Source: Cryobacterium lactosi (GTDB taxonomy: Bacteria > Actinomycetota > Actinomycetes > Actinomycetales > Microbacteriaceae). From it: a stretch of 64,000 nucleotides of DNA. Positions 14,933-28,603 of the stretch are shown here, piece after piece. The notes beneath the pieces were generated by a model, which searched no databases, was not told the DNA's origin, and was given only the letters and a program-made list of their open reading frames with translations. A program made the position numbers and the translations under genes. How positions within the stretch are numbered: the first letter of the stretch is position 1; the number at the start of each line of letters is the position of its first letter. The stretch is from the NCBI RefSeq assembly GCF_004403945.1, contig NZ_SOHM01000025.1, positions 64,205-128,204 of the forward strand. The letters are read 5' to 3'.

Positions 14933-15035
14933 GCATTGCCGGACAGCGGCTGGCAGGTTTCAGAAAGCTGGTGTTGCCGTCGCCGACGCCACGAGTTACG
15001 ACGTGGTGTCGGTAGGTTGCGCAAGGATGACACGC

Positions 15036-16313
15036 ATGGGGTTCCTAATTGCAATGGGTGTCGGGCTGGTCCTTGTCGGCGGAGGGGGGTTTGCTAAGTG
15101 GTATCGGCACGGGGGCCCGGGGAAAGACGTGATCTGGATACTTTGGGTGCGCGAGGTCGCGAGAATGTGTGCCTGGCTCACCGGCGCTGCAATCGTGTTT
15201 GCCTATGTGTTTGGAGCTGACCCATCCTTTCTGCCGATTCTTGGCATGCTAGTTCTGGTCAGCGTGAGCACCGTATGGGTTGCCAACCGAACCACGGCTG
15301 CCGTGCGCAAATCCCGGGTCAACGGCCTACGAAGCCTTATTCTGTGCCACGCCCAGGCAACATCCCGACGAGCCTCATTGGGTTTAAGACAAGGTGCGCG
15401 AGTCATTGCTCCAACTGGATGGTCTGAGTTTCGAATCGGAATTGATGTGATGGATAGGGTCCTCGCTCCCCGTACCATCTTGCTCGCCTATGGATCGGGT
15501 CTCGCGATTCTCCCCGTGCTGATGGCGTGGATTTTCATATCTGCTATTCGTGGAGGGTCAGTCGTGGATCAGCGAGTTCTCTCGCTGATCGTCGGCTACA
15601 ACGCGTTGCTTGTCGTTTCCTGCATCACGACGGCAGTGGCGTTGAGCCTGCTCATTCTGACAATGATGCGATTTGCGCGCGTGCTCCTCGTTGGTCTTGA
15701 TATCGCTGGCGCTTTTCGTGTTGTTGCGACGTGGACTGGCTATGGAACGGCGGCAGGCGTCGTGACCGCCGCTATGCTGCCTGTGCTGAATCAGCTCCTA
15801 CCACTTTCTACCTCCCCAGGGACCGATTCTGACTTAACGGCCACGATCTCACCGCAGTTGCTCATCGATATTCCCGCAGCAGGTGCCATAGTGGGCTACG
15901 GAATCGGCTTGACGGTTTCGGTCGTCGTTCTGTGCCGCAGAGCGGAAAATCTCATAATCCGTTGGTTACTCGCACCGGCGATTTTCGTTATGGTGCTGGT
16001 CGCACTCGGAACGAATGGGATCGATCCCAGGGGGCTATACGCTTCCGTTTCGCGCAGCGTCGCGACTTCGACGTCCGGCAAGCCACCTGGGTGCAATGCA
16101 ACCATTAATCAGTTTGAGGCCCGCCTCGCCGACACTCCGTGGGTGCTACAGCTACTGGAGACGTGTAGTCCGCCGTTCCTAGTCGAAGGCGGGATGTTCA
16201 TCGCCGGCACCAGTGCGGCCGTCATGTTGCTCGCTCTCGTCTTGATGGCAATCGACTTCCGCCGAGGGGTCCAAAAGTTGTCGGAACGGTCGGAATTGTC
16301 TGAAGCGCGATGA
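15036..16313 (+). CDS. Polytopic membrane protein of unknown function
   Basis: I do not recognise this 425-residue protein. It has about nine or ten hydrophobic segments, for example near residues 1-18, 42-60, 66-82, 148-168, 182-205, 230-250, 285-305, 312-332 and 388-410, plus a soluble loop around 110-140 with AQATSRRASLGLRQGARV. A cysteine pair (PPGCN and LETCSPP) lies in the last extracytoplasmic loop, near residues 352 and 376. ATG at 15036 has AAGGA eight bases upstream; ATG at 15027 is less likely. The lower GC and use of codons rare in neighbours suggest recent acquisition. It is the only gene in the segment between the ychF-end repeats. Confidence 0.7.
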   Translation: MGFLIAMGVGLVLVGGGGFAKWYRHGGPGKDVIWILWVREVARMCAWLTGAAIVFAYVFGADPSFLPILGMLVLVSVSTVWVANRTTAAVRKSRVNGLRSLILCHAQATSRRASLGLRQGARVIAPTGWSEFRIGIDVMDRVLAPRTILLAYGSGLAILPVLMAWIFISAIRGGSVVDQRVLSLIVGYNALLVVSCITTAVALSLLILTMMRFARVLLVGLDIAGAFRVVATWTGYGTAAGVVTAAMLPVLNQLLPLSTSPGTDSDLTATISPQLLIDIPAAGAIVGYGIGLTVSVVVLCRRAENLIIRWLLAPAIFVMVLVALGTNGIDPRGLYASVSRSVATSTSGKPPGCNATINQFEARLADTPWVLQLLETCSPPFLVEGGMFIAGTSAAVMLLALVLMAIDFRRGVQKLSERSELSEAR

Positions 16314-16468
16314 GATGCAATCCCGGTGCTGTCGCCCATACCGATGAATGGCCTATCGATTCGAAATCGACAAGCCAAGGGGCGGCCCGAGCAAGGCCAG
16401 ACCAGTCGTTCTTCAATCCAGACTGCGTTCGTCGAACGGGCTAGCCCATCATGCTGTTCGGTCGCGTA

Positions 16469-16501
16469 ACGTGGTGGAGTTCCGCTTCAACGTGTAGTTC
16501 T
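16469..16501 (+). repeat. Direct repeat of the ychF 3' end, right copy
   Basis: Second copy of the 33-base ychF end, differing from 14856-14888 at two positions. It keeps a stop codon in the ychF frame (TAG at 16495-16497 after codons for FRFNV), so it reads as a detached ychF tail. The preceding sequence shows no further ychF similarity. Confidence 0.9.
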
Positions 16502-16513
16502 TGCTGGCCAGAA

Positions 16514-16548
16514 ACGCAGCGCAGCCGGTCAGTTCGGCTGCGCTGCGT
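16514..16548 (+). terminator. Terminator after the detached ychF end
   Basis: A perfect 14-base stem (ACGCAGCGCAGCCG with CGGCTGCGCTGCGT) with a seven-base loop, 16 bases after the stop of the detached ychF tail. The spacing equals that of the terminator after intact ychF, so this one is probably the ancestral ychF terminator. Confidence 0.8.
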
Positions 16549-16647
16549 CTCTCTGTGACCGCACCACTGGCAGGCTGCGTCCGAGTCGCCGCGGCCCGGC
16601 TCGTGCACTTCTGGACCGATGTCTGTGGTTCGTGGCACGGTGTCCGC

Positions 16648-17076
16648 ATGGAACGCACATCGATCACCGAACAGGCCGAGCGGATCCTTCACGATGTCGC
16701 CTCGACGCTCATGACTCCCACAGCCGGCGAATGTCTCGTCTGCTTCGTGGCTCGCCAACTCGACGAGTTCGGGTGCAACGGCACCCACCGATTCGCATCG
16801 CACTATCGAGATTGCGTTGCCCCACGCGCCACCGCGCTGCTCGCGCGGCTCTCGGCGATGGGCGCGTGTTGTTGCGATTGCGAAATGTTCATGAACACCT
16901 ACGAGCCCGCCCCGCGGCTGTGGACGCAGGCGTGTGAAGCCGTCGACTCGGACGGTTATGGCGAGTGGGCTGACGCCAAGCCGCCCGACACGATGCCCCC
17001 GTGCGACACAACGCGACGAGGCTCAACTAAACCGTGTGCGAACTGGGTACGCGTTTCCCGCTCGCGGGACCGGTGA
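16648..17076 (+). CDS. DUF2695-like small cysteine-rich protein
   Basis: A 142-residue soluble protein with ECLVCFVARQLDEFGCNGTHRFASHYRD near residues 28-55 and GACCCDCEMFMN near 71-82, followed by PPCDTTRRGSTKPCANW near 115-131. The C-D-C-E block and the spacing of the cysteines match actinobacterial DUF2695 proteins. The function of the family is unknown; the cysteines suggest a metal site. I chose the ATG at 16648 because conserved sequence begins right after it. No ribosome site stands out. Confidence 0.72.
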   Translation: MERTSITEQAERILHDVASTLMTPTAGECLVCFVARQLDEFGCNGTHRFASHYRDCVAPRATALLARLSAMGACCCDCEMFMNTYEPAPRLWTQACEAVDSDGYGEWADAKPPDTMPPCDTTRRGSTKPCANWVRVSRSRDR

Positions 17077-17297
17077 TTCGACTTCGGAATGCCGTGGAGG
17101 CCAGCGTCCGAAGTGTCGATGTCGCAAGAGGCCATGCGGAGTGACGTCGCGCATCGTTGGCTATCCACTCCGCGCCATACGGAAGGGATATCAATGTGTA
17201 GCGCGTGCCTGAACTACTATCATCTGGCCGCGTTTCAGCCCTGAAGTGGGGATGACTCGGGGGTCTGTGGGGGCCCGGAGGTCACTAGGCTCTGGGC

Positions 17298-17714
17298 ATG
17301 TCCAGCCACGCGGATGATCCGAACGAACTCCACGCCCTCGCGGCGGCCGCCATGGATCACGCCTTCCGGTCCATCCAACCGCGTGGTCCACTGATGCCCT
17401 TCGCCCTCACGGAGGGCTCATCCGGCAGACGGCTGGTTCGAGCCGTAGCTGATCGGATCGAAGAGATGCTGGCGGCCACGCGCTGGCTTGTCCAAGAAAG
17501 TCCGGAATCGGCTCGAGCCGTCGTGGCATGGGACGGTTTCAGTAACCACACCGGGCGACGGATGGACGCCATCTTCGTGGAGGCGTACGAAAGTGGTGCG
17601 ACGGGAGGGATCCTCATCGTGCAACCGTACGAATCCCGGGGGATGCTGAAGAAGCGCAACGAACCCGTGGGCGAGCCTGGCGTCCTTGAGCGAGGCCGGC
17701 CGCCATTGTTCTGA
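17298..17714 (+). CDS. Conserved hypothetical protein
   Basis: A 138-residue soluble protein without signal peptide or membrane segment. It reads as one alpha/beta domain: FALTEGSSGRRLVRAV (residues 35-50), ARAVVAWDGFSNHTGRRMDAIFVEAYESGATGGILIVQPYE (73-113) and a C-terminal PVGEPGVLERGRPPLF. I have seen similar small proteins in actinobacteria annotated only as hypothetical. No catalytic motif is evident. It stands alone with 221 bases before and 180 bases after it. Confidence 0.65.
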   Translation: MSSHADDPNELHALAAAAMDHAFRSIQPRGPLMPFALTEGSSGRRLVRAVADRIEEMLAATRWLVQESPESARAVVAWDGFSNHTGRRMDAIFVEAYESGATGGILIVQPYESRGMLKKRNEPVGEPGVLERGRPPLF

Positions 17715-17894
17715 TTGCGGGGCAGATGGCCCTCGTGTAAGTCAGCTCTGAGTACCTCGTACACGCCGTCGGCGCCGGCTCGCGGCTATCATGGAGAGCT
17801 TCAACAATCACATGCTGACGGCAGTCATACATGTCTCAGGTGCGCTGGATCCGGCTAGGGCACAAGGCGTATAGATACGAGAATCGGATCCAAA

Positions 17895-18389
17895 GTGGAC
17901 TACGCAGCACGGCAACAACGCGCTCAACAGCTGGTGCAGGAGATAGACCTGCCACGCCCCGTGAACTCGGAAATCCTGCACCACCATATGGAGCAGCTCC
18001 GCAAGAAGAAGATCGTCATCGTGCAGGCGCCACAGGGAATGATCGATAGTGGAATCTGCGCGCTCTGGCTTGAGGTGGCCGGTGAAGAATTCGAGCGGAT
18101 CTACTACGCGCCGACAGACTCGGCCGTCCACCGGCAGCAGTTCGTGAATCATGAATTCGGACACATGATCCTCAACCACAAGAAGATGATCATGCCGGCC
18201 GACGGGGTTGCACTTCTCGCACCCCTCGTGCCGATGAACGCCATCGTCTCTGCGCTCTCCAGAAGCAGCTTCACCGATGAGGAGGAAGCAATGGCGGAGG
18301 CTATCGGGGACGAGCTTGCGATGATCCTTCGGAAGGACGCATCCACGAGCAGGCGCGGAGCCGAGACCGGATTCGGGCAGATTCTCTGA
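17895..18389 (+). CDS. ImmA/IrrE-family (M78-like) metallopeptidase
   Basis: A 164-residue protein with the zinc-peptidase motif NHEFGHMIL (H86, E87, H90) and a downstream acidic helix EEEAMAEAIGDELA (about 130-142) that could give the third ligand. ImmA/IrrE peptidases cleave a partner XRE-type repressor and thereby switch on mobile-element or stress genes. An XRE regulator is encoded two genes downstream, in the same operon. The GTG start has no strong ribosome site. A TATAGAT element near 17870 may be the -10 of the operon. The stop overlaps the next start by one base (TGATG). Confidence 0.82.
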   Translation: MDYAARQQRAQQLVQEIDLPRPVNSEILHHHMEQLRKKKIVIVQAPQGMIDSGICALWLEVAGEEFERIYYAPTDSAVHRQQFVNHEFGHMILNHKKMIMPADGVALLAPLVPMNAIVSALSRSSFTDEEEAMAEAIGDELAMILRKDASTSRRGAETGFGQIL

Positions 18390-19420
18390 TGTTCGCGCTT
18401 ATCGAATACGCGGTGCTCGCAGCCCTGTGGGGCACGACCCTTCTGCTTGTACCCAGCGCGCTCCGCGCAAAACGGCGTCTGCTCTTCTGGTTCATGGTGG
18501 CCTTCGCCGTCACAATGTCGCTGATCGCCGACGGTCCGTATGCATTCGTCGACGGCCTCCTGGGCGGAGTCGACGTGACGTATTTCATCTTCCACGCGAC
18601 AGCGATCATCTGTGTGTCGCTGTTCGACTGCCTCATCCAGGCCGCTGTCTCAAAGGCCGGACTAACCTCGAAGCGTAAGCGAATTGCACTTTGGGGAGCG
18701 ACCGGACTCATTCTCGTTCAGGCTGCCCTCTTCTTCGGCAGCGGCTGGGAGATTGACAACATCCAGTTCAGCGGCCCCGGCAACTGGAGCCAGCTGGTCT
18801 ACAGCTTCACGACCTGGATTGCGCTGATCGTTCTTGCGATCTCGACCATGGTCGCGTGCTCGACGGACTACAAACGTCAGTCGGACACCACGCTCAAGGC
18901 AGCACTCGTGATCATCGCTGCCGGGTGCGCAGTCGTATCGCTGTACGTCGTCGTTCAGATGGGTGTAGCGATCAACAGGGCGACAGGTGGCACCCAGGTC
19001 AGCGTGACAGTTGATTTCTTGTCGGTGGCTTGCCCGCTTCTCGCGCCCGTTCTCCTGTCGGTTGGTCTCGGTCTCCGTCTGTTGGTCGGAGTTTCCAGGA
19101 ACCTGAGCGATGCGGGTAGAAGCCGGCGGCTGCTGTGGAAGGTCACCCCGCTGTGGGAGCGTCTGCTGGCCGACCGTCCCGAGCTCAGCATTGAAGCACC
19201 GACATCACGAGTAGCGCTCTGCGTTCGGGGGAGCCACGCCTTACACCTCCACCGCCGCTATGTCGAGGTTCGTGACTGTCTCCTTCTCCATCCCGACGAG
19301 TCACTCTCGGCTCGCGAAGCCAAGCTCATCCAGCGGATCGAGGAGCATATTCGTCAGGCATCAGATGCATCTCACCGGACCACAAACGACTCGAGGACCG
19401 ATGAGCACCAAAACGCCTAA
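18389..19420 (+). CDS. MAB_1171c-family seven-helix membrane protein
   Basis: A 343-residue protein with seven hydrophobic segments (about residues 3-20, 30-50, 62-88, 103-120, 138-160, 172-195 and 208-235) and a cytoplasmic C-terminal region. That region contains VTPLWERLLADRPELSI and HLHRRYVEVRDCLLLH, which recall the MAB_1171c family, called putative transporters without biochemical proof. It overlaps the peptidase gene by one base and the regulator gene by 20 bases, so the three products are translationally coupled. A sensor or membrane effector role is possible. Confidence 0.75.
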   Translation: MFALIEYAVLAALWGTTLLLVPSALRAKRRLLFWFMVAFAVTMSLIADGPYAFVDGLLGGVDVTYFIFHATAIICVSLFDCLIQAAVSKAGLTSKRKRIALWGATGLILVQAALFFGSGWEIDNIQFSGPGNWSQLVYSFTTWIALIVLAISTMVACSTDYKRQSDTTLKAALVIIAAGCAVVSLYVVVQMGVAINRATGGTQVSVTVDFLSVACPLLAPVLLSVGLGLRLLVGVSRNLSDAGRSRRLLWKVTPLWERLLADRPELSIEAPTSRVALCVRGSHALHLHRRYVEVRDCLLLHPDESLSAREAKLIQRIEEHIRQASDASHRTTNDSRTDEHQNA

Positions 19421-19871
19421 TGAAGCGGGTGGGACAGGGGCGCCGCTGCCCACTCCACAACTGGAACTCGCACGCAAGCTGAACCTGCTGCTCGACGTCG
19501 TCGTGGCGGAAGGAAACACTCCGTATACCTACCGCGAGATCGCCGCCGGTCTCAAAGCCAACAAGGTTTCGCTCTCGAGGGCCAGATGGCAGTACATGGT
19601 CAGGGGTGAAGGTCCACTGGTCAGTGATGTGAGGCTGCTCACTGAGATCGCAAACTTTTTCGGGATCGCACCGGAGTACCTGCTCGGGTCCGACGATGAC
19701 CTGCCGGAGCGGATCGACTCTCAGTTGGAGTTGGTCCGCATGATCCGAGTCAAGCGAGTAATCAACTTTGCGGCCCGAACCCTCGGGGATACGTCCCCGG
19801 ATGCACTCAGAGAAATCACGAAGCTGCTTGAGGACAGGTTGCCCGGCGGCTCAGACCGGACGGACGAGTAG
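19401..19871 (+). CDS. XRE/Cro-type transcriptional regulator
   Basis: A 156-residue regulator with a helix-turn-helix domain. YTYREIAAGLKANKVSLSRARWQYMVRGE (about residues 44-72) followed by LLTEIANFFGIAPEYLLGSDDD (81-102) is the usual XRE pattern with the helix-5 YLLG end. The C-terminal 50 residues are helical (LELVRMIRVKRVINFAARTLG). It starts 20 bases inside the preceding gene. By analogy with ImmR/ImmA and DdrO/IrrE pairs it is the likely substrate of the peptidase two genes upstream; that is inference. Confidence 0.82.
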   Translation: MSTKTPNEAGGTGAPLPTPQLELARKLNLLLDVVVAEGNTPYTYREIAAGLKANKVSLSRARWQYMVRGEGPLVSDVRLLTEIANFFGIAPEYLLGSDDDLPERIDSQLELVRMIRVKRVINFAARTLGDTSPDALREITKLLEDRLPGGSDRTDE

Positions 19872-20440
19872 CACCAGCCGCAGCACCTCTCCTAAGAGGG
19901 AGCTGAATCGGCGGTACGCAGGGTGACGATCACCGTGCCGAACGAGGTAGGCTTAGACATGTCCAAGGGGGGATAAGGGCAGAGGTGCGCTGGGATCAGG
20001 GGATAGGACTTTGGGGGGCCGGCGCGCTTCAGCGTCTACGGGTTTGAGATGGATCACTTCCATCCAAAACGTCCCGCCGCGTGGGGGGACGCGGCGGGAC
20101 GCAACGTGGCCATTGGCGTGGGGGGACGCCTCAGGTCACGCACTAATTCTATGGGCGACCGCAGACTCCTCTGGCCAAACTTCCGTCGGAGTTGCCTGGC
20201 GACCGTGTGCCTGGCCTCAGTAGCGCCGGCGTCCGACCCTGGCTCCGAATCCCTAGGGCCATCGACAAGCTCCCATGCCGGTAATACGCTGGCGACCACC
20301 CCAGCCTGGGGTCAGTTCCTGCCGCGCCGCCGCCCCACTCTAGTGAGCAGATTCGTCTGGCGAGCAGCGTGGGGCAACTCCAGCGAAAGGCGGCATACAA
20401 GGTGGAGAAGAGCAGCGGTTCGGCGGAAGCGAGCGGACGC
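19872..20440. other. Gene-poor stretch with hairpins
   Basis: About 570 bases without a gene I can defend. Reading frames across it (for example 20011-20223 and 20049-20564) show no family motif, have poor codon structure, and the second runs over the downstream oxidoreductase in another frame. The stretch holds two G-loop hairpins at 20070-20130. Before them, AGACATGTCCAAGGGGGGATAAGG near 19956 looks like a translation start followed at once by a stop, perhaps a gene remnant. Confidence 0.5.
20070..20130. repeat. Two hairpins sharing a poly-G loop motif
   Basis: Hairpin 1 has a perfect 12-base stem (CGTCCCGCCGCG with CGCGGCGGGACG, 20070-20101) around loop TGGGGGGA. Hairpin 2 (20115-20130) has stem GGCGT/ACGCC around GGGGGG. 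Both contain the identical 14-mer GCGTGGGGGGACGC, 37 bases apart. No T-run follows either one. Confidence 0.75.
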
Positions 20441-20887
20441 ATGCCGCGCCTGCAGCCTCGATGGTTCATTGTGCTGTTCTGGAAGGTGCACCGGGCGCTC
20501 GTTCGGATCACCGGAGGGCGGAGTGGCCTGTGGCGCCCTCGTGATCAGAACTGGGGCACGCTGAGGCTGACCACTATCGGTCGCCGCAGCGGCGAGGATC
20601 GATCGGTGATTGTGGGGTACTACGAGGACGGCCCGAATCTGGTGACAATGGCGATGAACGGATGGGGCACAGCCGAGCCCGCGTGGTGGCTGAACCTCCA
20701 GGCGCATCCGGAGGCGAGGGTGCAGCTTGCCGGCAGGACAGGGCACACCGTCGTCGCCCACGCGGCAGAGGGGGCGGAAAGGGAGCGGCTCTGGGACCGA
20801 TGGCGACTGCTGGATACGGACCTGGATGGGTACGCCAGTCGGCGGCCCATGCAGACGGCCGTGGTGGTCCTCGAGCCGGCGAGCTGA
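20441..20887 (+). CDS. Nitroreductase/deazaflavin (F420)-dependent oxidoreductase family protein
   Basis: A 148-residue split-barrel protein of the DUF385/DDN family, which uses F420H2 or a related flavin to reduce quinones or nitro compounds. Family blocks are LRLTTIGRRSGEDRSVIVGYYEDGPNLVTMAMNGWG (about residues 40-75), AWWLNLQAHPEARVQLAGR (80-98) and ERLWDRWRLLDTDLDGYASR (113-132). I chose the ATG at 20441 with a purine-rich leader; the frame is open up to 20369. It is a short gap away from the photolyase gene and may be co-transcribed with it. Confidence 0.85.
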   Translation: MPRLQPRWFIVLFWKVHRALVRITGGRSGLWRPRDQNWGTLRLTTIGRRSGEDRSVIVGYYEDGPNLVTMAMNGWGTAEPAWWLNLQAHPEARVQLAGRTGHTVVAHAAEGAERERLWDRWRLLDTDLDGYASRRPMQTAVVVLEPAS

Positions 20888-20969
20888 GCGATTTCGGCGG
20901 CCGAGCTTGTGGAGCGGCGCGACGAAGATGAGTGCCAGGGCTCTCTGCGACCCGTCTATGGTTGGCACC

Positions 20970-22562
20970 ATGAGTCCCGGCCTGAATGTGCGTCTCGTTC
21001 TGCCGCATCAGTTGTTCGAACAACACCTCGAGGCCTCCGGAGACACCGTGTTCGTGCTCTTAGAGCACGACCTACTCTTTCGCCAGTACCGGTTCCATTC
21101 GCACAAGCTGGTTCTGCATCGCGCGTCGATGGCCCGGTTCGCCGGCCGGCTGCGCGAGCAGGGTCACGAGGTCGTCGAGCTGCAGAGCAACGCCACCCGA
21201 AGCTCCCACGACCAGCTCGCCGAATTCACGCGCACCCGAAAGCCGGCACGAGTGACCTGGTTCGACGTGGTCGACGACTGGCTCGAGCGGGACCTGCTCG
21301 CCGGGCTCGCTGACGGCGGATACCGGATGCGCCCGGACGACGTGCTGGAGACCCCGAACTTTCTCACCGACCGGGCCCAGATCGATGACTGGTTCGCCCA
21401 CAACGGCTCTCGCATGCAGGACTTTTATGTGTGGCAACGCCGCCGGCTGGGGATCCTTGTCGATCACGGCAAGCCCGTCGGCGGCAAATGGTCGTTCGAT
21501 GCCGAGAACCGCAAGAAGCTGCCGCGCGGGTACACGGCCCCTGTTGTGGGCCGGTTCGCGGGCCATCCCGTCGTGCAGCAGGAGGGGGCCTTCGACCTCG
21601 ACGCACTGATGGGGGATACCGACCACACCCAGGTGCCGCCCGAGGTCGACAGGGCCATCGCCTGGGTCAGCGCCGAGTTCCCGGATGCCCCAGGCAACCC
21701 GCACCTGTTCGCCTGGCCGACCAGCGCTGAGGAAGCGCGCGCGCACCTGCAGGAGTTCGTGCGCGAGCGCCTGCACGACTTCGGACCCTATGAGGACGCG
21801 ATCTCCGGCACGCATCCGTTCATCAATCACGGTCTGCTGACCGCCGCGCTGAACATCGGGCTGCTGGACCCGCGCGAGGTCGTCGGCGCCGTGCTCGACG
21901 GTGCCGACCACACCACACCGCTCGCCTCGCTGGAGGGGTTCGTGCGGCAGGTGATCGGCTGGCGGGAGTACATGCGCGCCACGTACCGAACCAGCGGCCG
22001 CTCGATGCGTACCGCCAACCGTCTCGATCACCAGCGCACACTCGGCGACGGCTGGTGGGACGCGAGCACCGGGCTGGCGCCGGTGGACCTGGTCATCTCC
22101 CGCGTGCTGGACACCGGGTATGCGCATCACATCGAACGGCTGATGGTGCTCGGCAACGCCATGGCGCTGCTGCGGATCCACCCGGATGCGGTCTACGAGT
22201 GGTTCATGGAGATGTTCATCGACGCGTACGACTGGGTGATGGTGCCCAACGTGTACGCGATGAGCCAGTTCGCCGCGGGCGATGTGATTACCACCAAGCC
22301 CTATGTGTCGGGCAGCAACTACTTGCGAAAAATGTCCGACCTGCCCACCGGAGAGTGGACGGCCGACTGGGACGGGCTGTACTGGACGTTCATCGACGAC
22401 CACCGCGCGGTTTTCGCGGCCAACCCCCGCACCCGGATGGTCGTCTCGCTGCTGGACAAAATGGACCCGAGCACCCTCGATGCCCATCGGCGCCGCGCCG
22501 CGGCGTTGCTCGAGGCCGAGCACGGCACTGCGCTGCCGCGGCATCCGGGGGCCAGCCAATAA
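20970..22562 (+). CDS. Cryptochrome/photolyase of the FeS-BCP (PhrB) type lacking the cluster cysteines
   Basis: A 530-residue flavoprotein. RLVLPHQLFEQHL near the N-terminus and LLEHDLLFRQYRFHSHKLVLHRASM are the N-terminal domain of the prokaryotic (6-4) photolyase group. GPYEDAISGTHPFINHGLLTAALNIGLLDP, GFVRQVIGWREYMR, HHIERLMVLGNAMALL and WFMEMFIDAYDWVMVPNVYAMSQFAAG form the FAD domain. Homologues hold a 4Fe-4S cluster through four cysteines, three of them in the segment after KMSDY. Here that segment is KMSDLPTGEWTADWDGLYW (near residues 455-473), and the whole protein contains no cysteine. The ATG at 20970 begins directly before the conserved start. It probably repairs UV damage or senses light without the cluster. 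Confidence 0.9.
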   Translation: MSPGLNVRLVLPHQLFEQHLEASGDTVFVLLEHDLLFRQYRFHSHKLVLHRASMARFAGRLREQGHEVVELQSNATRSSHDQLAEFTRTRKPARVTWFDVVDDWLERDLLAGLADGGYRMRPDDVLETPNFLTDRAQIDDWFAHNGSRMQDFYVWQRRRLGILVDHGKPVGGKWSFDAENRKKLPRGYTAPVVGRFAGHPVVQQEGAFDLDALMGDTDHTQVPPEVDRAIAWVSAEFPDAPGNPHLFAWPTSAEEARAHLQEFVRERLHDFGPYEDAISGTHPFINHGLLTAALNIGLLDPREVVGAVLDGADHTTPLASLEGFVRQVIGWREYMRATYRTSGRSMRTANRLDHQRTLGDGWWDASTGLAPVDLVISRVLDTGYAHHIERLMVLGNAMALLRIHPDAVYEWFMEMFIDAYDWVMVPNVYAMSQFAAGDVITTKPYVSGSNYLRKMSDLPTGEWTADWDGLYWTFIDDHRAVFAANPRTRMVVSLLDKMDPSTLDAHRRRAAALLEAEHGTALPRHPGASQ

Positions 22563-22633
22563 TCGTTCATTTATCTGGTGATTAACCGGTCCCCAAGAGT
22601 AAGGTCTGAGGCATCGACATCCGGGGGATAGAC

Positions 22634-23287
22634 ATGACCAACAGAACATCGGCGTTCCACAGACACGGCACCATTGCTGCACTCGCGGTTGGTGTGATGC
22701 TCATTGCGGGATGTGCGGGCGAGCCGGCCGGCGACGAACCGGCAGCTGCATCGCCAACCACCGCTCCCGCCGAGACCGCGGTGCCGACACCGGCCACACC
22801 CGCACCGGCCGAGCTGAACCTGGACGATCCGCACTCGTGGGTGATCGACTACACCGGGATCGGACCGCTGACGCTGCAGGGGAATGTGGCGGACGAGGCC
22901 GCCTCGGCGACCGCGTTCACCACCACCCTCCAGGACGGCTGCCCCTGGGTAACTTCCCTCGACAAGACCGACTTCCCCAGCATCTGGCTCCCCGACCCGG
23001 CGGCCACCGGGGTCATCGACCAGATCGTGCTGCAGGCCTGGGGCTCCGCTCCCACGGTCGCCGCCAACTCGCCCGCAACCAGTGCCGGTATCGGAATCGG
23101 TGCGACCCTGGACCAGATCACGGCCGCCTACCCCGACATCGAGCAGAACGACGGCCGGTATGCCCCGTTCTATTCCCTCCCCGACGGCAGCGGACACTGG
23201 ATCAACTTCGCGCTGAGCACCGACGGCGTTGTGGACACCATCGTCGTTCGCGACAGCGCGCTCATGGACAGTGAGTACTGCGGCTAG
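22634..23287 (+). CDS. Putative lipoprotein of unknown function
   Basis: A 217-residue exported protein with a type II signal (RHGTIAALAVGVMLIAGC, lipobox LIAGC, Cys near residue 27). A Pro/Thr/Ala-rich spacer (about 30-60) precedes one globular domain containing WVIDYTGIGPLTL, GCPWVTSLD and GIGIGATLDQITAAYPDIEQND, in which the last block resembles ligand-binding lipoproteins of the Microbacteriaceae. Its C-terminal DSEYCG may pair with the Cys in GCPW. No function can be assigned. It is convergent with a GNAT gene 21 bases away. Confidence 0.75.
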   Translation: MTNRTSAFHRHGTIAALAVGVMLIAGCAGEPAGDEPAAASPTTAPAETAVPTPATPAPAELNLDDPHSWVIDYTGIGPLTLQGNVADEAASATAFTTTLQDGCPWVTSLDKTDFPSIWLPDPAATGVIDQIVLQAWGSAPTVAANSPATSAGIGIGATLDQITAAYPDIEQNDGRYAPFYSLPDGSGHWINFALSTDGVVDTIVVRDSALMDSEYCG

Positions 23288-23308
23288 CCGGAGCAGGTCG
23301 CCGGGGCG

Positions 23309-23884
23309 TCAGTCGAGCATCAGCCGCATGAGGATGCGGGGGAACCCGCCGGCCACGGAGTCGGTGTCGGCGGCCTTCGTGAATCCGGCGCGCTCGAACA
23401 TGGTCCGGGTGCCGACGTAGGCCATGGTGAGGTCCACCCGCTGGCCGTCGTTGTCGACGGGATAGCTCTCGACGCAGGGTGCGCCGGATGCCCGCGCGTA
23501 GTCGACGGCGCCGGCGATCAGCGCCGGCGTGACGCCCTGTTTGCGGTAGCCAGGGCGCACCCGGAGGCACCACAGCGACCACACCGGCAGGTCGTCCAGG
23601 TGTGGGATCTTGCGGGAGGTGGCGAACGGGTGCAGCTCGGATCGTGGGGCGATGCCGGCCCAACCGGCCACCTCGCCGTCGAGGTGGGCGAGCACGCCGG
23701 GGGCGAGCTCTCGGGTGCAGAGCTCACGCACCTTGTCGGCTCTGGCCACGCCGGTGAGTGCCCGGTTCTGCTTCGAGTCCAGGCGCCAGGAGAGGCACCA
23801 GCACACCGACGATTCGGGTTTCTTGGGCGCGAACATCGTCGCCATATCGTCGAAATCATGGGCCGGGCGCACGTCGATCGTCAT
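23309..23884 (-). CDS. GNAT-family N-acetyltransferase
   Basis: A 191-residue acyl-CoA-dependent acyltransferase. The core is WSLWCLRVRPGYRKQGVTPALIAGAVDYARASGA (about residues 101-134), with the R-x-x-G-x acetyl-CoA loop RKQGV, followed by AYVGTRTMFERAGFTKAA. The N-terminal CWCLSWRL segment near residue 28 is a recognisable variant of this subfamily. The substrate is unknown. It is a single gene between two lipoprotein genes. Confidence 0.87.
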   Translation of the reverse strand: MTIDVRPAHDFDDMATMFAPKKPESSVCWCLSWRLDSKQNRALTGVARADKVRELCTRELAPGVLAHLDGEVAGWAGIAPRSELHPFATSRKIPHLDDLPVWSLWCLRVRPGYRKQGVTPALIAGAVDYARASGAPCVESYPVDNDGQRVDLTMAYVGTRTMFERAGFTKAADTDSVAGGFPRILMRLMLD

Positions 23885-23994
23885 GGTCCCCTCACTACTC
23901 AGTGTGGACCCATCGTGTCACGCGGCAATGCGACCAGGAAGAGCGGCGAGTGCGCCGCGACTGTTGCCGTGACGGCGTCTTGGCGAACTCAGCG

Positions 23995-25005
23995 CTAGCG
24001 CAGGCTTGGGTCCAGCTCGGGCTCGATGGCGTCGATCTGCAGTGCTCCGTCGCCGGTGGCCAGGGTCCATGCGGCGCTGATGTACTCTATGGCCGTCAGG
24101 TCGCCGGAGGCGAAGCCCACGTTGAAGCCGCCGGCCAGCACGAGTCCTTCGTCGTCTGAACCGTCGAACAGGGTGGGTGTGCTCGCCCGCAGGCTGTCCT
24201 CGCTCAGGCTCGTGGTCCCGCGCTCGTCACGGATGGCCGCTTCCACGATGGCCGCATCGGTGGCGGCGTAGTCGACGGTGACGGTCGTACGCACCAGAAG
24301 CAGAGGGGTCTGTTGGTCCACGCTCAGGGTGCCGAAGATCTTGTCGACGCCGACGACCGTGTTGATGGCCCGCGGACCGCCGTCCCGGGTGAGCGGCGAC
24401 GGCAGGCTCTGGGACACGATGACACCGGCATCCCTGAGCCCGAAGCTTGCCACCTGGGGCGCCAGGGCGGTGTGGGCCGCAGGCGTGAACCACGGCGACG
24501 CGCTCTCGAACCAGGTGGCGTCGGCGGTCGCGGAGTCGTCCAGGAGCGCTGAATCCAGTCCCGCTTCCGTCACGTAGACGAGCGCCGCACGCTGTGCGGC
24601 CTCGGCCTCCTCGATGGTGAAGCCGTACGTGGCCAAGGAATCGAGATCAACGACCGCGGGGTCGAACCGGGCGCCGGCTGACGCCGTGTCGAGTGTTGTA
24701 CGGCAATAGCTGCCCGCGCCATCCGTGACCTGTTCCTTGGCGATGACATCGCCCCAGGGCCCCTGTCCGTCGGACTCCGGGCAGGCGCCGACGGCGGTGG
24801 GCACCGGTGTGGCCGGGGACGGCGCGGCGCTGGACGGGGCCTCCGCGGCGGGCGCCGCACCGGCGCAGCCGCTGAGGAGCAGGACCGCCGAGACGACGAG
24901 CGCACCCGCGGGCCGTCGAAGGTGCGAGCGAGGGGCGAGCACGCCCACAGCGGCTTTCTGCTGGTGCGCGTTGTCCCCGGTCAGGTGGCGAAAAGTCTTC
25001 ATCAT
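23995..25005 (-). CDS. Putative lipoprotein of unknown function
   Basis: A 336-residue exported protein. The N-terminus is unusually long before the signal core (RRPAGALVVSAVLLLSGC, lipobox LLSGC near residue 48), so a later start is possible, although no better one has a clear ribosome site. A Pro/Ser/Ala-rich spacer follows, then a domain that I do not recognise, with SLATYGFTIEEAEAAQRAALVYVTEAGLDSALL near 140-172 and FGTLSVDQQTPLLLVRTTVTVDYAATDAAI near 227-256. No catalytic motif is visible. Confidence 0.72.
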   Translation of the reverse strand: MMKTFRHLTGDNAHQQKAAVGVLAPRSHLRRPAGALVVSAVLLLSGCAGAAPAAEAPSSAAPSPATPVPTAVGACPESDGQGPWGDVIAKEQVTDGAGSYCRTTLDTASAGARFDPAVVDLDSLATYGFTIEEAEAAQRAALVYVTEAGLDSALLDDSATADATWFESASPWFTPAAHTALAPQVASFGLRDAGVIVSQSLPSPLTRDGGPRAINTVVGVDKIFGTLSVDQQTPLLLVRTTVTVDYAATDAAIVEAAIRDERGTTSLSEDSLRASTPTLFDGSDDEGLVLAGGFNVGFASGDLTAIEYISAAWTLATGDGALQIDAIEPELDPSLR

Positions 25006-25129
25006 TGTTCCCCCTTACCCCAAGCTTAACGCGGGGTGCGCGGCAGGGGCGGTCGGTCGGCCAGCCGGTCGTCCCCATCCGGGGGCACAACGCATCACGC
25101 AGGTCACATCGGGCGGGCGAGCGGGCAGG

Positions 25130-26008
25130 CTACTCGCCGGAGAGGGCCAGGTTGACGAAGGCGCGCACGGCGGCGGAGGCCCGGCGTTTGCGGGCTGCGG
25201 CCAGGTACACGGTGAAGTCAGGCACATGGGCCACCGGGATGCGGCGCACATTGAGGGCGTCGTGCGCGGCGAACTCGGGCAGCAGGGCGACGCCGAGGCC
25301 GTTGGTGACGTACTCGGCGGCGGTGCCGATGTCGGAGACCTCGATCATCACCCGGCGCTCCACTCCGGCGGCGGCGAACGCATCATCCACGATCTGCCGG
25401 CTCGCATAGCCGGGCGGCAGGTCGATGAACTCCTGCCCGCCCAGGTCGCCCAGCTGAACGCCACGGGCCGCGGCGAGCGGATGCCCGGCAGGCACCACGA
25501 GCACCATCGGGGAGGAGGCGATCGGAACGGCCGAGAGCGTCGCGGGCACCGGCCCGCTGAGCGCCAGGAACGCCAGGTCGAGCTCGCCGCTGGCCAGCTC
25601 GTCGACGAGATCGGCCGAACCGCGTCGGGCCGCCCGCAGCCGCACGCCCACGCCCGGATGGGCACTGCGGTAGAGGCCGAGCAGCCGCGGCACATTCACG
25701 AGCGTGACCGAGGTCATCAGCCCGATCACGATGGAACCGGTGATGGCGTGCCTGGACTGCTGCGCCACATCCCGCACCTCGTTCACGGCATCGAGGGCCT
25801 CACGCACCTTCGGTAGAAGCAGCTCTCCGGTGGACGTGAGCCGGATCTGCCGGCGGCTGCGGTCGAACAGCTCGACGCCGAGCTCACTCTCGAGCGACCG
25901 CACTCCGGCCGACACTGCCGACTGCGCGATCGTGAGCCGCTCGGCCGCCCTGGTGAAGTTGAGCTCGCCGGCGACGGTGCTGAAGAATTCGAGCTGCCTG
26001 AGGTCCAT
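25130..26008 (-). CDS. LysR-family regulator, divergent from acetoin genes (AlsR-like)
   Basis: A 292-residue LysR regulator with the N-terminal winged helix (MDLRQLEFFSTVAGELNFTRAAERLTIAQSAVSAGVRSLE, residues 1-40) and a periplasmic-binding-protein-like effector domain from about residue 90. It is transcribed away from alsS-alsD with 142 bases between the starts, the arrangement of AlsR with alsSD in Bacillus. Control by acetate or a related signal is inferred from that analogy. The palindrome ATCTGCAGAT at 26036-26045 lies in the shared region and could be part of its operator. Confidence 0.9.
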   Translation of the reverse strand: MDLRQLEFFSTVAGELNFTRAAERLTIAQSAVSAGVRSLESELGVELFDRSRRQIRLTSTGELLLPKVREALDAVNEVRDVAQQSRHAITGSIVIGLMTSVTLVNVPRLLGLYRSAHPGVGVRLRAARRGSADLVDELASGELDLAFLALSGPVPATLSAVPIASSPMVLVVPAGHPLAAARGVQLGDLGGQEFIDLPPGYASRQIVDDAFAAAGVERRVMIEVSDIGTAAEYVTNGLGVALLPEFAAHDALNVRRIPVAHVPDFTVYLAAARKRRASAAVRAFVNLALSGE

Positions 26009-26035
26009 GCCTCCATCATTCCACCGACTGATCTG

Positions 26036-26045
26036 ATCTGCAGAT
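26036..26045. promoter_or_regulatory. Palindrome in the alsR-like/alsS intergenic region
   Basis: ATCTGCAGAT is a perfect ten-base palindrome 27 bases from the regulator start and 105 bases from the alsS start. The TTGGCA at 26048-26053 just after it could be a -35 element for alsS, but no good -10 follows at 17 bases. LysR operators are often imperfect dyads in this position. Confidence 0.35.
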
Positions 26046-26150
26046 GATTGGCATCCGGTATCTGTGTTGTTCGTTATCGATCGAGCGGGCAGGCTGGTGG
26101 AAGACGCCGGTTCATCACACGGCGCTCACCCGCACTACAGGAGGCACGGC

Positions 26151-27875
26151 ATGGCTCAGGATTCATCGGTTTTGGATGAGAAGGTCGGAGCCTTCGGCTC
26201 CGGTGCGCTGGGCTCGCCCCGTCGCTCGGCCGACCGGGTGGTCGAATGCCTTGAGGCCTACGGTGTCAAGTGGGTCTTCGGCGTTCCCGGCGCCAAGATC
26301 GACCCCGTCTACGACGCCCTCCTCGATGGTGGCCCGCAGATGATCGTGGTGCGCCACGAACAGAACGCCGCGTTCATGGCCGCCGCCGTCGGCCGCCTCA
26401 CCGGGGAACCCGGCGTGGTGCTCGTCACCAGCGGCCCCGGCACCGCCAACCTCGCCACCGGGCTGCTCACAGCTACCACCGAGGGCGACCCTATGGTCGC
26501 CATCTGCGGCGCCGTCTCGCGCGGTGACCGGCTCAAGCGCACCCACCAGTCGATGGACGCCGTCGGCATGCTCTCCGCCGTAGCCAAGTCCGCCGGCGAG
26601 GTCAGCGTCGCCAACAATGTGCCGGAGGCCATCGCCAACGCCTTCCGCCAGGCGGTGCAGGAGCCCAAGGGCGCCGCCGCCGTGGTGCTGCCCTACGACG
26701 TGCTCACCGACTCGACCACGGTGTCGATGACCACCCCGCACTGGGTGCCGCAGCTCGGCGCCGCCCCGGCCGCGAGCATCCGCGAGGCCGCCGACCTGCT
26801 CCGCACGGCGCAGTTCCCGGTGATCCTCGCCGGCGCCCGGTCCGGCTCCGACCGGGCCGTCGCGGCCCTGCACCGGCTGCTCGGCGCCGCCAAGCTCCCC
26901 GTCGTCGAGACCTTCCAGGCCGCGGGTGTCATCTCCCACGACCTCGAAGAGCACTACCTGGGCCGGGTCGGCCTGTTCCGCAATCAGCCCGGCGACGTGC
27001 TGCTGCACAAGGCCGACCTGATCCTGGCGATCGGCTACGACTTCGTCGAATACGAACCGTCCAAGTGGAACAAGGACCACCTGCGCCGCATCATCCACCT
27101 CGACGAGCTCTCGGCCGACCTGGACGACTACTACCGTCCCACGGTCGAGCTGCGTGGCGACGTGGCCGAGACCATGGATGCCCTCGCCCGCGAGATCGAC
27201 GGCCTCACCCTGTCGGCATCCGCCTCGGCGGTCGTCGCCACCGAGCGGGTCCGCCTGGCCGAAGCGGACTTGCCCGTCCACCGTGACGACGAGTCCGAGG
27301 GGGTGCATCCCGCCGAGTTGACCCTGGCGATGCGCGCCCTGCTGCCCGACGACACCACGGTGCTCTGCGATGTGGGCTCGCACTACATCTACATGGCCAG
27401 GCACTTCCGTACCTATCACCCGCGCACCCTGCTGTTCTCCAACGGCCAGCAGACCCTCGGCGTTGCTCTGCCCTGGGCGATCGCGGCGACCCTGGTGCGC
27501 CCAGGCACCCCGGTGGTCTCGGTGTCCGGTGACGGCGGCTTCCTCTACTCCGCCATGGAGCTGGAGACCGCCGTGCGGCTCGGCTCCAAGTTCACCCACA
27601 TCATCTTCAACGACGGCACCTACGACATGGTCGCGTTCCAGCAGCAGGGCAAGTACGGCCGTACCTCCGGCGTGCAGCTGGGCGACTACGACGCCGTGCA
27701 GTACGCCGAATCGTTCGGCGCCCACGGCTACCGCGTCACGCACCTGGATGACTTCGCCGCGGTGCTCGAGCAGGCCATGAGCGATGACGGCCCGAGCATC
27801 ATCGACGTGCGGGTGGACTACCGCAACAACCGGGACGAACTTATGGCCGACCTGGAAAGCGATGTGCTGCTGTGA
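26151..27875 (+). CDS. alsS: Acetolactate synthase, catabolic AlsS type
   Basis: A 574-residue thiamine-diphosphate enzyme that condenses two pyruvates to 2-acetolactate and CO2. The PYR domain carries [20 protein letters not shown] and the catalytic Glu in [12 protein letters not shown] (near residue 68); the PP domain carries [31 protein letters not shown] (near 456-486), the TPP/Mg motif. ATG at 26151 is preceded by AGGAGG. It is coupled to a decarboxylase gene, which marks it as the fermentative enzyme and not the biosynthetic IlvB, and it has no regulatory-subunit gene nearby. Confidence 0.95.
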
Positions 27876-28603
27876 ACGACATCACCGTTTCCAGGCACGA
27901 GATCTTCCAGACCAGCCTGATGAGCGCCCTGCTCGACGGCGTCTACGAGGGCGAGATGACTGTGCGCGACCTGCTCGGACACGGCAGTTTCGGCATCGGC
28001 ACCTTCAATGGGCTCGACGGCGAAATGCTCATCGTCGACGGCAAGTGCTACCAGCTCCGCGCAGACGGCGGCGTGACCAAGGCCGACCTCAGCGCCTACA
28101 CGCCGTACGCCGTCGTGACGAACTTCGTGCCGCACATCGAAAGCCAGCTGCCCGACAACGTGGTGCGCTCCGAGGCATCCGCCTTCATCGACCACATGAC
28201 GGCATCCGAGAACTACATGTATGCGCTGCGCATCGATGGCGACTTCGAGTGGATCCGGATGCGCACCGTTGTGAAGCAGGAGAAGCCGTACCGACCAATG
28301 GTGGAGGCCACCGACGAGGACGCCATCGTAGAGTTGCACGACGTGTCCGGCTCCCTCGTGGGCTTCCGCACCCCGCTCTACGAGCAGGGCATCGGCGTGC
28401 CCGGCTGCCACACCCACTTCATCACCGACGACCGCACCGGCGGCGGTCACGTGCTCGACTTCAAACTTAAAAGCGGCAGCGCGGCGCTCTGCCTGGGCAC
28501 CGACCTTCGCCTGCAGCTGCCGCTGACGGATGCGTTCCGCGACGCCAACCTGTCGCCGGAAGACCTCGCTCGGCAGCTGGCCAAGACCGAGCAGCACGCC
28601 TGA
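27872..28603 (+). CDS. alsD: Alpha-acetolactate decarboxylase
   Basis: A 243-residue zinc enzyme that converts 2-acetolactate to acetoin. The metal-binding block is [23 protein letters not shown] (about residues 176-198), with three His in the H-x-H ... H arrangement, and [29 protein letters not shown] near 35-63 is the conserved N-terminal part. GTG at 27872 overlaps the alsS stop, so translation is coupled. Together with alsS it provides the acetoin route, which consumes pyruvate without making acid. Confidence 0.95.

Follow-up and report, generated by a model that had tools for sequence, protein, structure and literature searches.

A probable (6-4) photolyase without iron-sulfur cluster ligands in Cryobacterium lactosi, and the broad cluster-free branch to which it belongs

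Can a photolyase of the prokaryotic (6-4)/FeS-BCP group work without the four cysteines that bind the 4Fe-4S cluster, and what would then take the place of the cluster? This question is raised by one gene in a 64,000-nucleotide stretch of the Cryobacterium lactosi genome (termed the window, to which all positions refer). The role of the cluster in (6-4) photolyases is unsettled; PhrB variants with mutated cysteines either fail to express or come out insoluble, according to the available part of PMC4619345. The job of the cluster could be read from enzymes that manage without it. We propose that the protein described here is a working prokaryotic (6-4) photolyase of a cluster-free subgroup, the roof subdomain of which would be held by a shorter loop carrying Trp463 and Trp467, and we give this reading a probability of about 0.85.

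20970..22562, + strand: gene for a probable prokaryotic (6-4) photolyase of the cluster-free kind (530 aa without Cys; PF04244 and PF03441)

The open reading frame begins with an ATG at 20970, closes with a stop codon ending at 22562 and encodes 530 aa without a single Cys, and the sequence-only reading of this DNA had its coordinates, frame and length right. It had also assigned the protein to the prokaryotic (6-4)/FeS-BCP group, which Pfam, the PDB sequence matches and the predicted fold all bear out. Pfam placed two domains above the cut-off, a PhrB-like N-terminal one (PF04244) with E = 1.7e-46 and an FAD-binding one (PF03441) with E = 1.1e-6; the NCBIfam models gave no match to the protein at E 0.001, nor did an Rfam scan of positions 15000 to 28000 of the window. 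The closest sequences in the PDB are the Caulobacter (6-4) photolyase 9hnk, Rhodobacter CryB (3zxs), the Vibrio protein 7ykn and Agrobacterium PhrB (4dja). Eight distinct members of the group were found there by sequence, and the five inspected in our alignment all have the cluster cysteines. The nearest named records come from Cryobacterium (83 to 84% identity), followed outside the genus by Glaciihabitans and Arthrobacter (up to 79%). When the protein was searched against its own genome, the sole match was the gene itself. A second gene elsewhere in this genome matches the FAD_binding_7 model far more strongly (222.6 bits) and probably encodes an ordinary photolyase, judging from this score.

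We then aligned the protein with PhrB at the four ligand positions, a check called for by the sequence-only reading. C350, C438, C441 and C454 of PhrB (PDB 4dja) are matched in our protein by P371, P459, a gap and A465, respectively, so the canonical cluster-binding residues are absent and the protein lacks the four-Cys signature that defines FeS-BCPs; by implication, it would hold no iron. The same holds for many relatives. Among 226 distinct homologues, 100 carry all four ligand Cys, 125 carry none and 1 carries a single Cys (L176, in the C454 column); these numbers become 125, 130 and 1 in an extended alignment of 256 rows. One row (L063), truncated by a contig end before the loop, was scored as cluster-free from a single column. 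The ligand columns are thus nearly all-or-none, with no graded series. The absence of Cys from the entire protein is less telling than the ligand columns, because it is partly a matter of composition: 14 of the 80 homologues with called start codons (our protein included) have no Cys at all. The corresponding count for the cluster-free rows is 16/126, in rows that reach as far as 15 residues ahead of the start, owing to which even our own protein scores one Cys.

What occupies the ligand positions instead is specific.

22080..22082, + strand: Pro371 at the first ligand position (PhrB Cys350); Pro in 125/126 cluster-free rows, Cys in 100/100 of the others
22329..22385, + strand: shortened cluster loop, residues 454 to 472, KMSDLPTGEWTADWDGLYW, with Trp463 and Trp467 replacing three Cys; recognised by loop length and Trp-pair pattern

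The only cluster-free row without Pro at the first ligand position has Leu, and this Pro is written with all four Pro codons. Between the equivalents of PhrB Tyr430 and Trp461, we counted 20 residues in 118/126 cluster-free rows and 30 in 89/100 four-Cys rows. The Trp-pair loop pattern was found in 122/126 cluster-free rows, and none of the 100 four-Cys rows has two Trp before LYW; Trp463 and Trp467 are both invariant in a 39-row alignment, and a planctomycete cluster-free row has Met instead of the second Trp. Tyr460 of PhrB is kept in our protein (Y471) and in 95/126 cluster-free rows. We also observed a further divergent loop in a row obtained by the Bacteroidota search (L221), which lacks both this Pro and the loop Trp pair and has Phe at the Trp390 position.

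In PhrB, every tested condition that might remove the cluster led to poorly expressed or insoluble protein, as reported in the accessible text of PMC4619345, and the replacement found in the cluster-free enzymes should therefore be structural. The AlphaFold2 model of our protein (mean pLDDT of 88.9, pTM of 0.91) is consistent with this idea, as residues 461 to 480, covering the loop and its helix, have block means of 95 and 94. Confidence in the model drops immediately ahead of the loop, with a mean pLDDT of 59 for residues 431 to 440 and of 77 for residues 441 to 450 (with Tyr445), and also in block 171 to 180 (61), which contains Asp177. The shortened loop would run directly into the helix bearing Trp463 and Trp467, with Pro371 at the first ligand position. 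In PhrB, the 4Fe-4S cluster pins the C-terminal roof subdomain; a loop ten residues shorter would hold it here.

We next located the residues equivalent to those of PhrB involved in repair and electron transfer, together with Asp177 and Asp276, which presumably form the Mg2+ site.

21498..21500, + strand: Asp177, equivalent to PhrB Asp179; Asp in 126/126 cluster-free and 100/100 four-Cys rows
21795..21797, + strand: Asp276, equivalent to PhrB Asp254; Asp in 126/126 cluster-free and 100/100 four-Cys rows
22056..22058, + strand: Trp363, equivalent to PhrB Trp342, outer electron carrier (role from the available part of PMC4619345); Trp in 102, Tyr in 23 and Arg in 1 of 126 cluster-free rows
22125..22130, + strand: His386-His387, equivalent to PhrB His365/His366; H387 in 126/126 and H386 in 124/126 cluster-free rows
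22200..22205, + strand: Trp411-Phe412, equivalent to PhrB Trp390-Tyr391, FAD photoreduction; Trp in 125/126 and Phe in 126/126 cluster-free rows
22302..22304, + strand: Tyr445, equivalent to PhrB Tyr424, lesion binding (same source, PMC4619345); Tyr in 125/126 cluster-free rows, with one gap in the truncated row
22320..22322, + strand: Tyr451, equivalent to PhrB Tyr430 (PMC4619345); Tyr in 125/126 cluster-free rows, with one gap

The three residues that mark prokaryotic (6-4) photolyases, His366, Tyr424 and Tyr430, are thus found as H387, Y445 and Y451, and their equivalents, like that of Trp390, are present in 100/100 four-Cys rows. The equivalents of PhrB Arg369 and Leu370 are conserved in 126/126 cluster-free and 100/100 four-Cys rows. 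His366 is required for repair in PhrB, the H366A variant being inactive (PMC4619345, available part), and Phe is functional at PhrB position 391 (PMC5887102). By analogy, we suggest that reduced FAD, excited by blue or near-UV light, would donate an electron to a (6-4) photoproduct held by Tyr445, that His387 would act as proton donor and acceptor during repair and that FAD would be kept reduced via Trp363-Trp411-Phe412.

The lesion itself deserves scrutiny, as the protein might act on cyclobutane pyrimidine dimers (CPDs), either instead of (6-4) photoproducts or in addition to them. The related Phr2 of Synechococcus is predicted to be a CPD photolyase, with lower UV-B survival in its absence (PMC9426592, accessible text), and few mutations are enough to switch a (6-4) enzyme to CPD repair (PMC9649867, accessible text). 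We nevertheless find CPD repair improbable: the equivalents of His366 and Tyr424, needed for (6-4) repair and lesion binding, are kept, CPD repair is probably covered by the second FAD_binding_7 gene, and PromaPL is listed as a prokaryotic 6-4 photolyase in the available part of PMC9178010. The fold is also far nearer to the prokaryotic (6-4) enzymes than to class I or class II CPD enzymes. The model superposes on 8ijy, 9hnk, 3zxs and 4dja with Z scores of 40.9 to 41.8 and rmsd values of 2.1 to 2.2 over 480 to 486 residues, differences in Z of less than 1 between solved structures counting as ties. All of the top ten solved entries belong to the prokaryotic (6-4) group (Z = 39.3 to 41.8), whereas the next photolyase class reaches at most 25.7 among the matches listed. 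Chains of class II CPD photolyases score 23 to 25, compared to ∼41 for the prokaryotic (6-4) enzymes, so that the class II fold is not the nearest one. We also considered the bifunctional CPD/(6-4) photolyase PhrSph98, the group of which is reported as sister of the class II CPD photolyases, and set it aside as a model, since it is class II-like and was modelled on the class II structure 2XRY, while our protein has a Z score of ∼41 to the (6-4) enzymes.

The (6-4) photolyase proposed here also differs from PhrB in its antenna domain.

21003..21014, + strand: PHQL motif, residues 12 to 15, at the start of the antenna domain (GDQL in PhrB-type enzymes); P[HN]QL in 122/126 cluster-free rows
21093..21119, + strand: antenna-pocket loop, residues 42 to 50, with F42, K46 and H50 at the positions of PhrB His43, Lys47 and Ile51; Phe in 122, Lys in 125 and His in 119 of 126 cluster-free rows
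21279..21281, + strand: Trp104, antenna pocket, at the position of PhrB Arg108; Trp in 110/126 cluster-free rows

P12, Q14 and L15 are invariant in the 39-row alignment. A GDQL-like start occurs in 36/100 four-Cys rows, and the other 64 have neither form, some of them (e.g., L095) lacking that N terminus. Judged by its residues, the pocket does not fit the DMRL pattern and fits the 8-HDF pattern incompletely, as both are given in the accessible text of PMC9178010, and the cluster-free enzyme may carry a different antenna pigment or none. Leu36 and a Gln-Tyr-Arg-Phe loop look 8-HDF-like by eye when compared with the same text (PMC9178010), but 8-HDF is not the favoured antenna, because the FO synthase (cofH) profile TIGR03551 has no match in the genome. 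A near-uniform altered pocket amounts to a concrete prediction of a possibly different light-harvesting cofactor.

The adjacent gene (20369 to 20887) encodes a protein of the F420H2-dependent quinone reductase family (PF04075). We rejected a link to deazaflavin through this neighbor, as just 2 of the other 10 cluster-free loci in Cryobacterium have it upstream. Since the genome gave no match to cofH (TIGR03551), this PF04075 protein may use a different cofactor.

To see how the cluster-free members relate to each other, the sequence-only reading had called for a tree. With the ligand regions masked, one branch of a FastTree phylogeny of the 226 rows separated the cluster-free from the four-Cys sequences exactly, with a support of 0.996 (0.998 unmasked). 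The same split received 100/99 in an IQ-TREE analysis of 55 rows, where it was present in 200/200 bootstrap trees, and 0.997 in the masked tree of 256 rows. Among the rows sampled, the cluster-free members therefore occupy one well-supported side, which spans Actinomycetota, Bacteroidota and Planctomycetota (131 rows in the 256-row set). The earlier idea of a stable cluster-free subclass proved right.

Searches for homologues started from our protein, PF04244 or L193, and the set takes in only the best loci from each; four-Cys members outside Actinomycetota are under-sampled as a result. Pseudomonadota, Cyanobacteriota and archaea are represented by ten named plasmid records (nine of them four-Cys) and by PhrB; cyanobacterial cluster-free sequences are absent from the set. 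The 226 rows leave out six pieces shorter than 430 aa (L071, L094, L094b, L182, L182b and L245), 14 identical duplicates and loci L081 to L084, which are repeats of others or belong to another family; the 256-row set adds 30 loci retrieved with L193. All trees are unrooted, and the cluster-free state may stem either from loss of the cluster or from its primary absence.

The tree bears on the idea that the cluster was lost more than once, independently and recently, to give the cluster-free members, with iron or oxidative stress as one conceivable cause. Iron scarcity has reportedly been proposed to explain the absence of the cluster in PromaPL. Several loop forms also exist among the cluster-free rows (the main form, that of the L193 type, L229 and L221), as several losses might leave. 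Since a single branch splits the two sets even with the loop masked, we regard multiple losses as quite improbable. The sequence-only reading had named oxidative or light exposure as a possible selective force. The cluster-free state is common to the whole deep branch, and both types occur in one genus, which speaks mildly against a recent loss driven by habitat.

Two lineages adjoin the dividing branch of the cluster-free subgroup. One is a small Microbacteriaceae type (L193 and L303 to L305; support of 1.0) with the loop MGxWW..AFTxAYW, and the other (L229, from a planctomycete genome) is cluster-free yet has a 30-residue loop. L193 and L229 have a GTQL or GDQL start, and neither the L193 type nor L229 has the Phe/His/Trp pocket, their pocket resembling that of the four-Cys half. 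This hints that the cysteines were lost before the antenna pocket changed. A wider scheme would rank the cluster-free enzymes not as degenerate FeS-BCPs but as one of two main halves of the family, equal in depth to the cluster-bearing one: the Trp pair would stabilize the roof, the pocket (PHQL, Phe42, His50 and Trp104) would receive a chromophore other than DMRL or 8-HDF, and the enzymes would have given up the cluster while the antenna was still unchanged, because the L193 type and L229 are cysteine-free but keep a four-Cys-like pocket. We put this scheme forward tentatively and consider it doubtful as a whole.

We then evaluated the distribution of both types in Cryobacterium. PF04244 matched in 47 of 57 genomes, and all 49 places were read: 11 genomes (ours included) have a cluster-free gene, 36 have a four-Cys gene (38 genes), 10 have neither and none has both. 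Mutual exclusion of the two types seemed to follow (Fisher P = 1.9e-6), but we rejected it, because an rpoB phylogeny that includes 54 of the 57 genomes reveals clade structure instead. The cluster-free gene is confined to one 12-species clade, where it is present in 11; the four-Cys gene is in the other main branch, and the five species nearest to the cluster-free clade have neither. The pattern therefore reflects ∼1 to 2 events and provides no evidence against coexistence of both types. Replacement in place was also discarded: none of the ten flanking genes tested from our locus was found in the 38 four-Cys Cryobacterium loci (∼5 kb on each side where the contig allowed). Among the other cluster-free Cryobacterium loci, 9/10 share at least one of the ten neighbor genes and 7/10 share the upstream trio. 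The simplest reading is that the cluster-free gene was gained once in Cryobacterium, probably by transfer.

The upstream trio (17895 to 19868) encodes a small ImmA/IrrE-like protein (HEFGH, by eye), a DUF6545 membrane protein (PF20182) and a helix-turn-helix-like protein (by eye). On the other side, positions 25133 to 28600 contain a LysR regulator divergent from a TPP enzyme gene, followed by a gene that looks by eye like an acetolactate decarboxylase gene, possibly forming an acetoin (alsR-alsS-alsD-like) unit.

A search for relatives in phages gave no match at E 1e-5, and a single pattern-based scan of viral contigs found 5 stretches matching the pattern, with no relative confirmed. The plasmid records gave 87 matches, all below 60% identity. 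A contig titled Vibrio cholerae strain 35D (L046) encodes an actinobacterial-type cluster-free photolyase with 55% identity and the loop SDFGDGPWRFSWDALYW, as in an Arthrobacter locus (L060), and this record is probably misassigned or contaminated.

The cluster-free Cryobacterium genes are under purifying selection. We obtained a median dN/dS of 0.193 (range, 0.149 to 0.286) for the 45 pairs formed by 10 intact genes, ours included, and 0.130 for ten four-Cys genes of Cryobacterium. This result bears on the possibility that the protein is a light-sensing cryptochrome with little repair activity, like CryB of Rhodobacter in part; CryB, one of the nearest solved relatives, also regulates genes (PMC9178010, available part). 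We judge this very unlikely, as the full set of repair residues is under purifying selection and none of the ten flanking genes tested lies beside the gene in the 19 non-Cryobacterium loci listed. That we are dealing with a cluster-bearing photolyase gene in decay, or with sequencing errors in such a gene, as the need of PhrB for its cluster to stay soluble (PMC4619345, available part) and the split of the gene into two frames in one related genome (G042, L094) might suggest, is refuted for the clade by the dN/dS of 0.19 and by the identical specific replacement in the Cryobacterium orthologues and in more than 100 other rows (Pro in 125/126, Trp-pair loop in 122/126), and a sequencing error is likewise dismissed because these orthologues carry the same loop at a dN/dS of ∼0.19. 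The split frames of the Cryobacterium genome G042 reflect disruption of the gene or a faulty assembly.

The sequence-only reading had implied that a cluster-free subclass would be new and had accepted placement in a class already on record as a refutation. By this yardstick the novelty is refuted: such prokaryotic (6-4) photolyases are already known, both as a phenomenon and as a class, from the available parts of PMC4619345, PMC9178010 (subgroup M) and PMC9426592. Already in 2015, 7% of 464 PhrB homologues were reported to lack Tyr460 and also the cluster Cys (PMC4619345). Subgroup M, described in 2022, has 20 members from multiple lineages, including PromaPL, and is the sole subgroup without the four Cys in the accessible text of PMC9178010, which also reports a complex antenna pattern for it and advises the name prokaryotic 6-4 photolyases for the whole group. 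The portion of PMC12082625 at hand mentions several orthologues without the cysteines, and that of PMC9426592 discusses the cluster-free Phr2 of marine Synechococcus as a predicted CPD photolyase. We found nothing pertinent in the open-licence literature on cluster-free (6-4) photolyases of Cryobacterium and Arthrobacter. New here are the breadth and scale of the branch, the clean split, the changed and shared antenna pocket, a second loop type and a gain in Cryobacterium that was probably a single one. The cluster-free enzymes make up a broad natural set, in which many members come from cultured bacteria; as the loop swap is well defined and one genus has both types, they allow a clean comparison.

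Compared by description only, our protein is, like PromaPL and the rest of subgroup M, a prokaryotic (6-4) homologue without the four Cys (PMC9178010, available part), but its host is a Cryobacterium and that of PromaPL a marine cyanobacterium. Its branch counts 131 rows with a nearly uniform pocket in the main part, compared to 20 members with a complex antenna in subgroup M as described there. The fold is that of the Caulobacter protein 9hnk and Rhodobacter CryB (3zxs), which are among the best solved sequence matches and, unlike our protein, carry four cysteines in the alignment. SePhrB of Synechococcus elongatus (8ijy) has a similar fold (Z = 41.8, tied with others) and an antenna pocket that also departs from the DMRL type (PMC9178010, available part), but it has the cluster and uses 8-HDF, whereas our genome lacks a TIGR03551 match. 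With PhrB of Agrobacterium fabrum (4dja), our protein shares the fold (Z = 40.9, rmsd of 2.2 over 486 residues) and the equivalents of His366, Tyr424/Tyr430, Trp342/Trp390 and Asp179/Asp254; it differs by the absence of 4Fe-4S ligands, a loop ten residues shorter, an identity of 29% and an antenna pocket in which Phe, His and Trp take the places of His43, Ile51 and Arg108.
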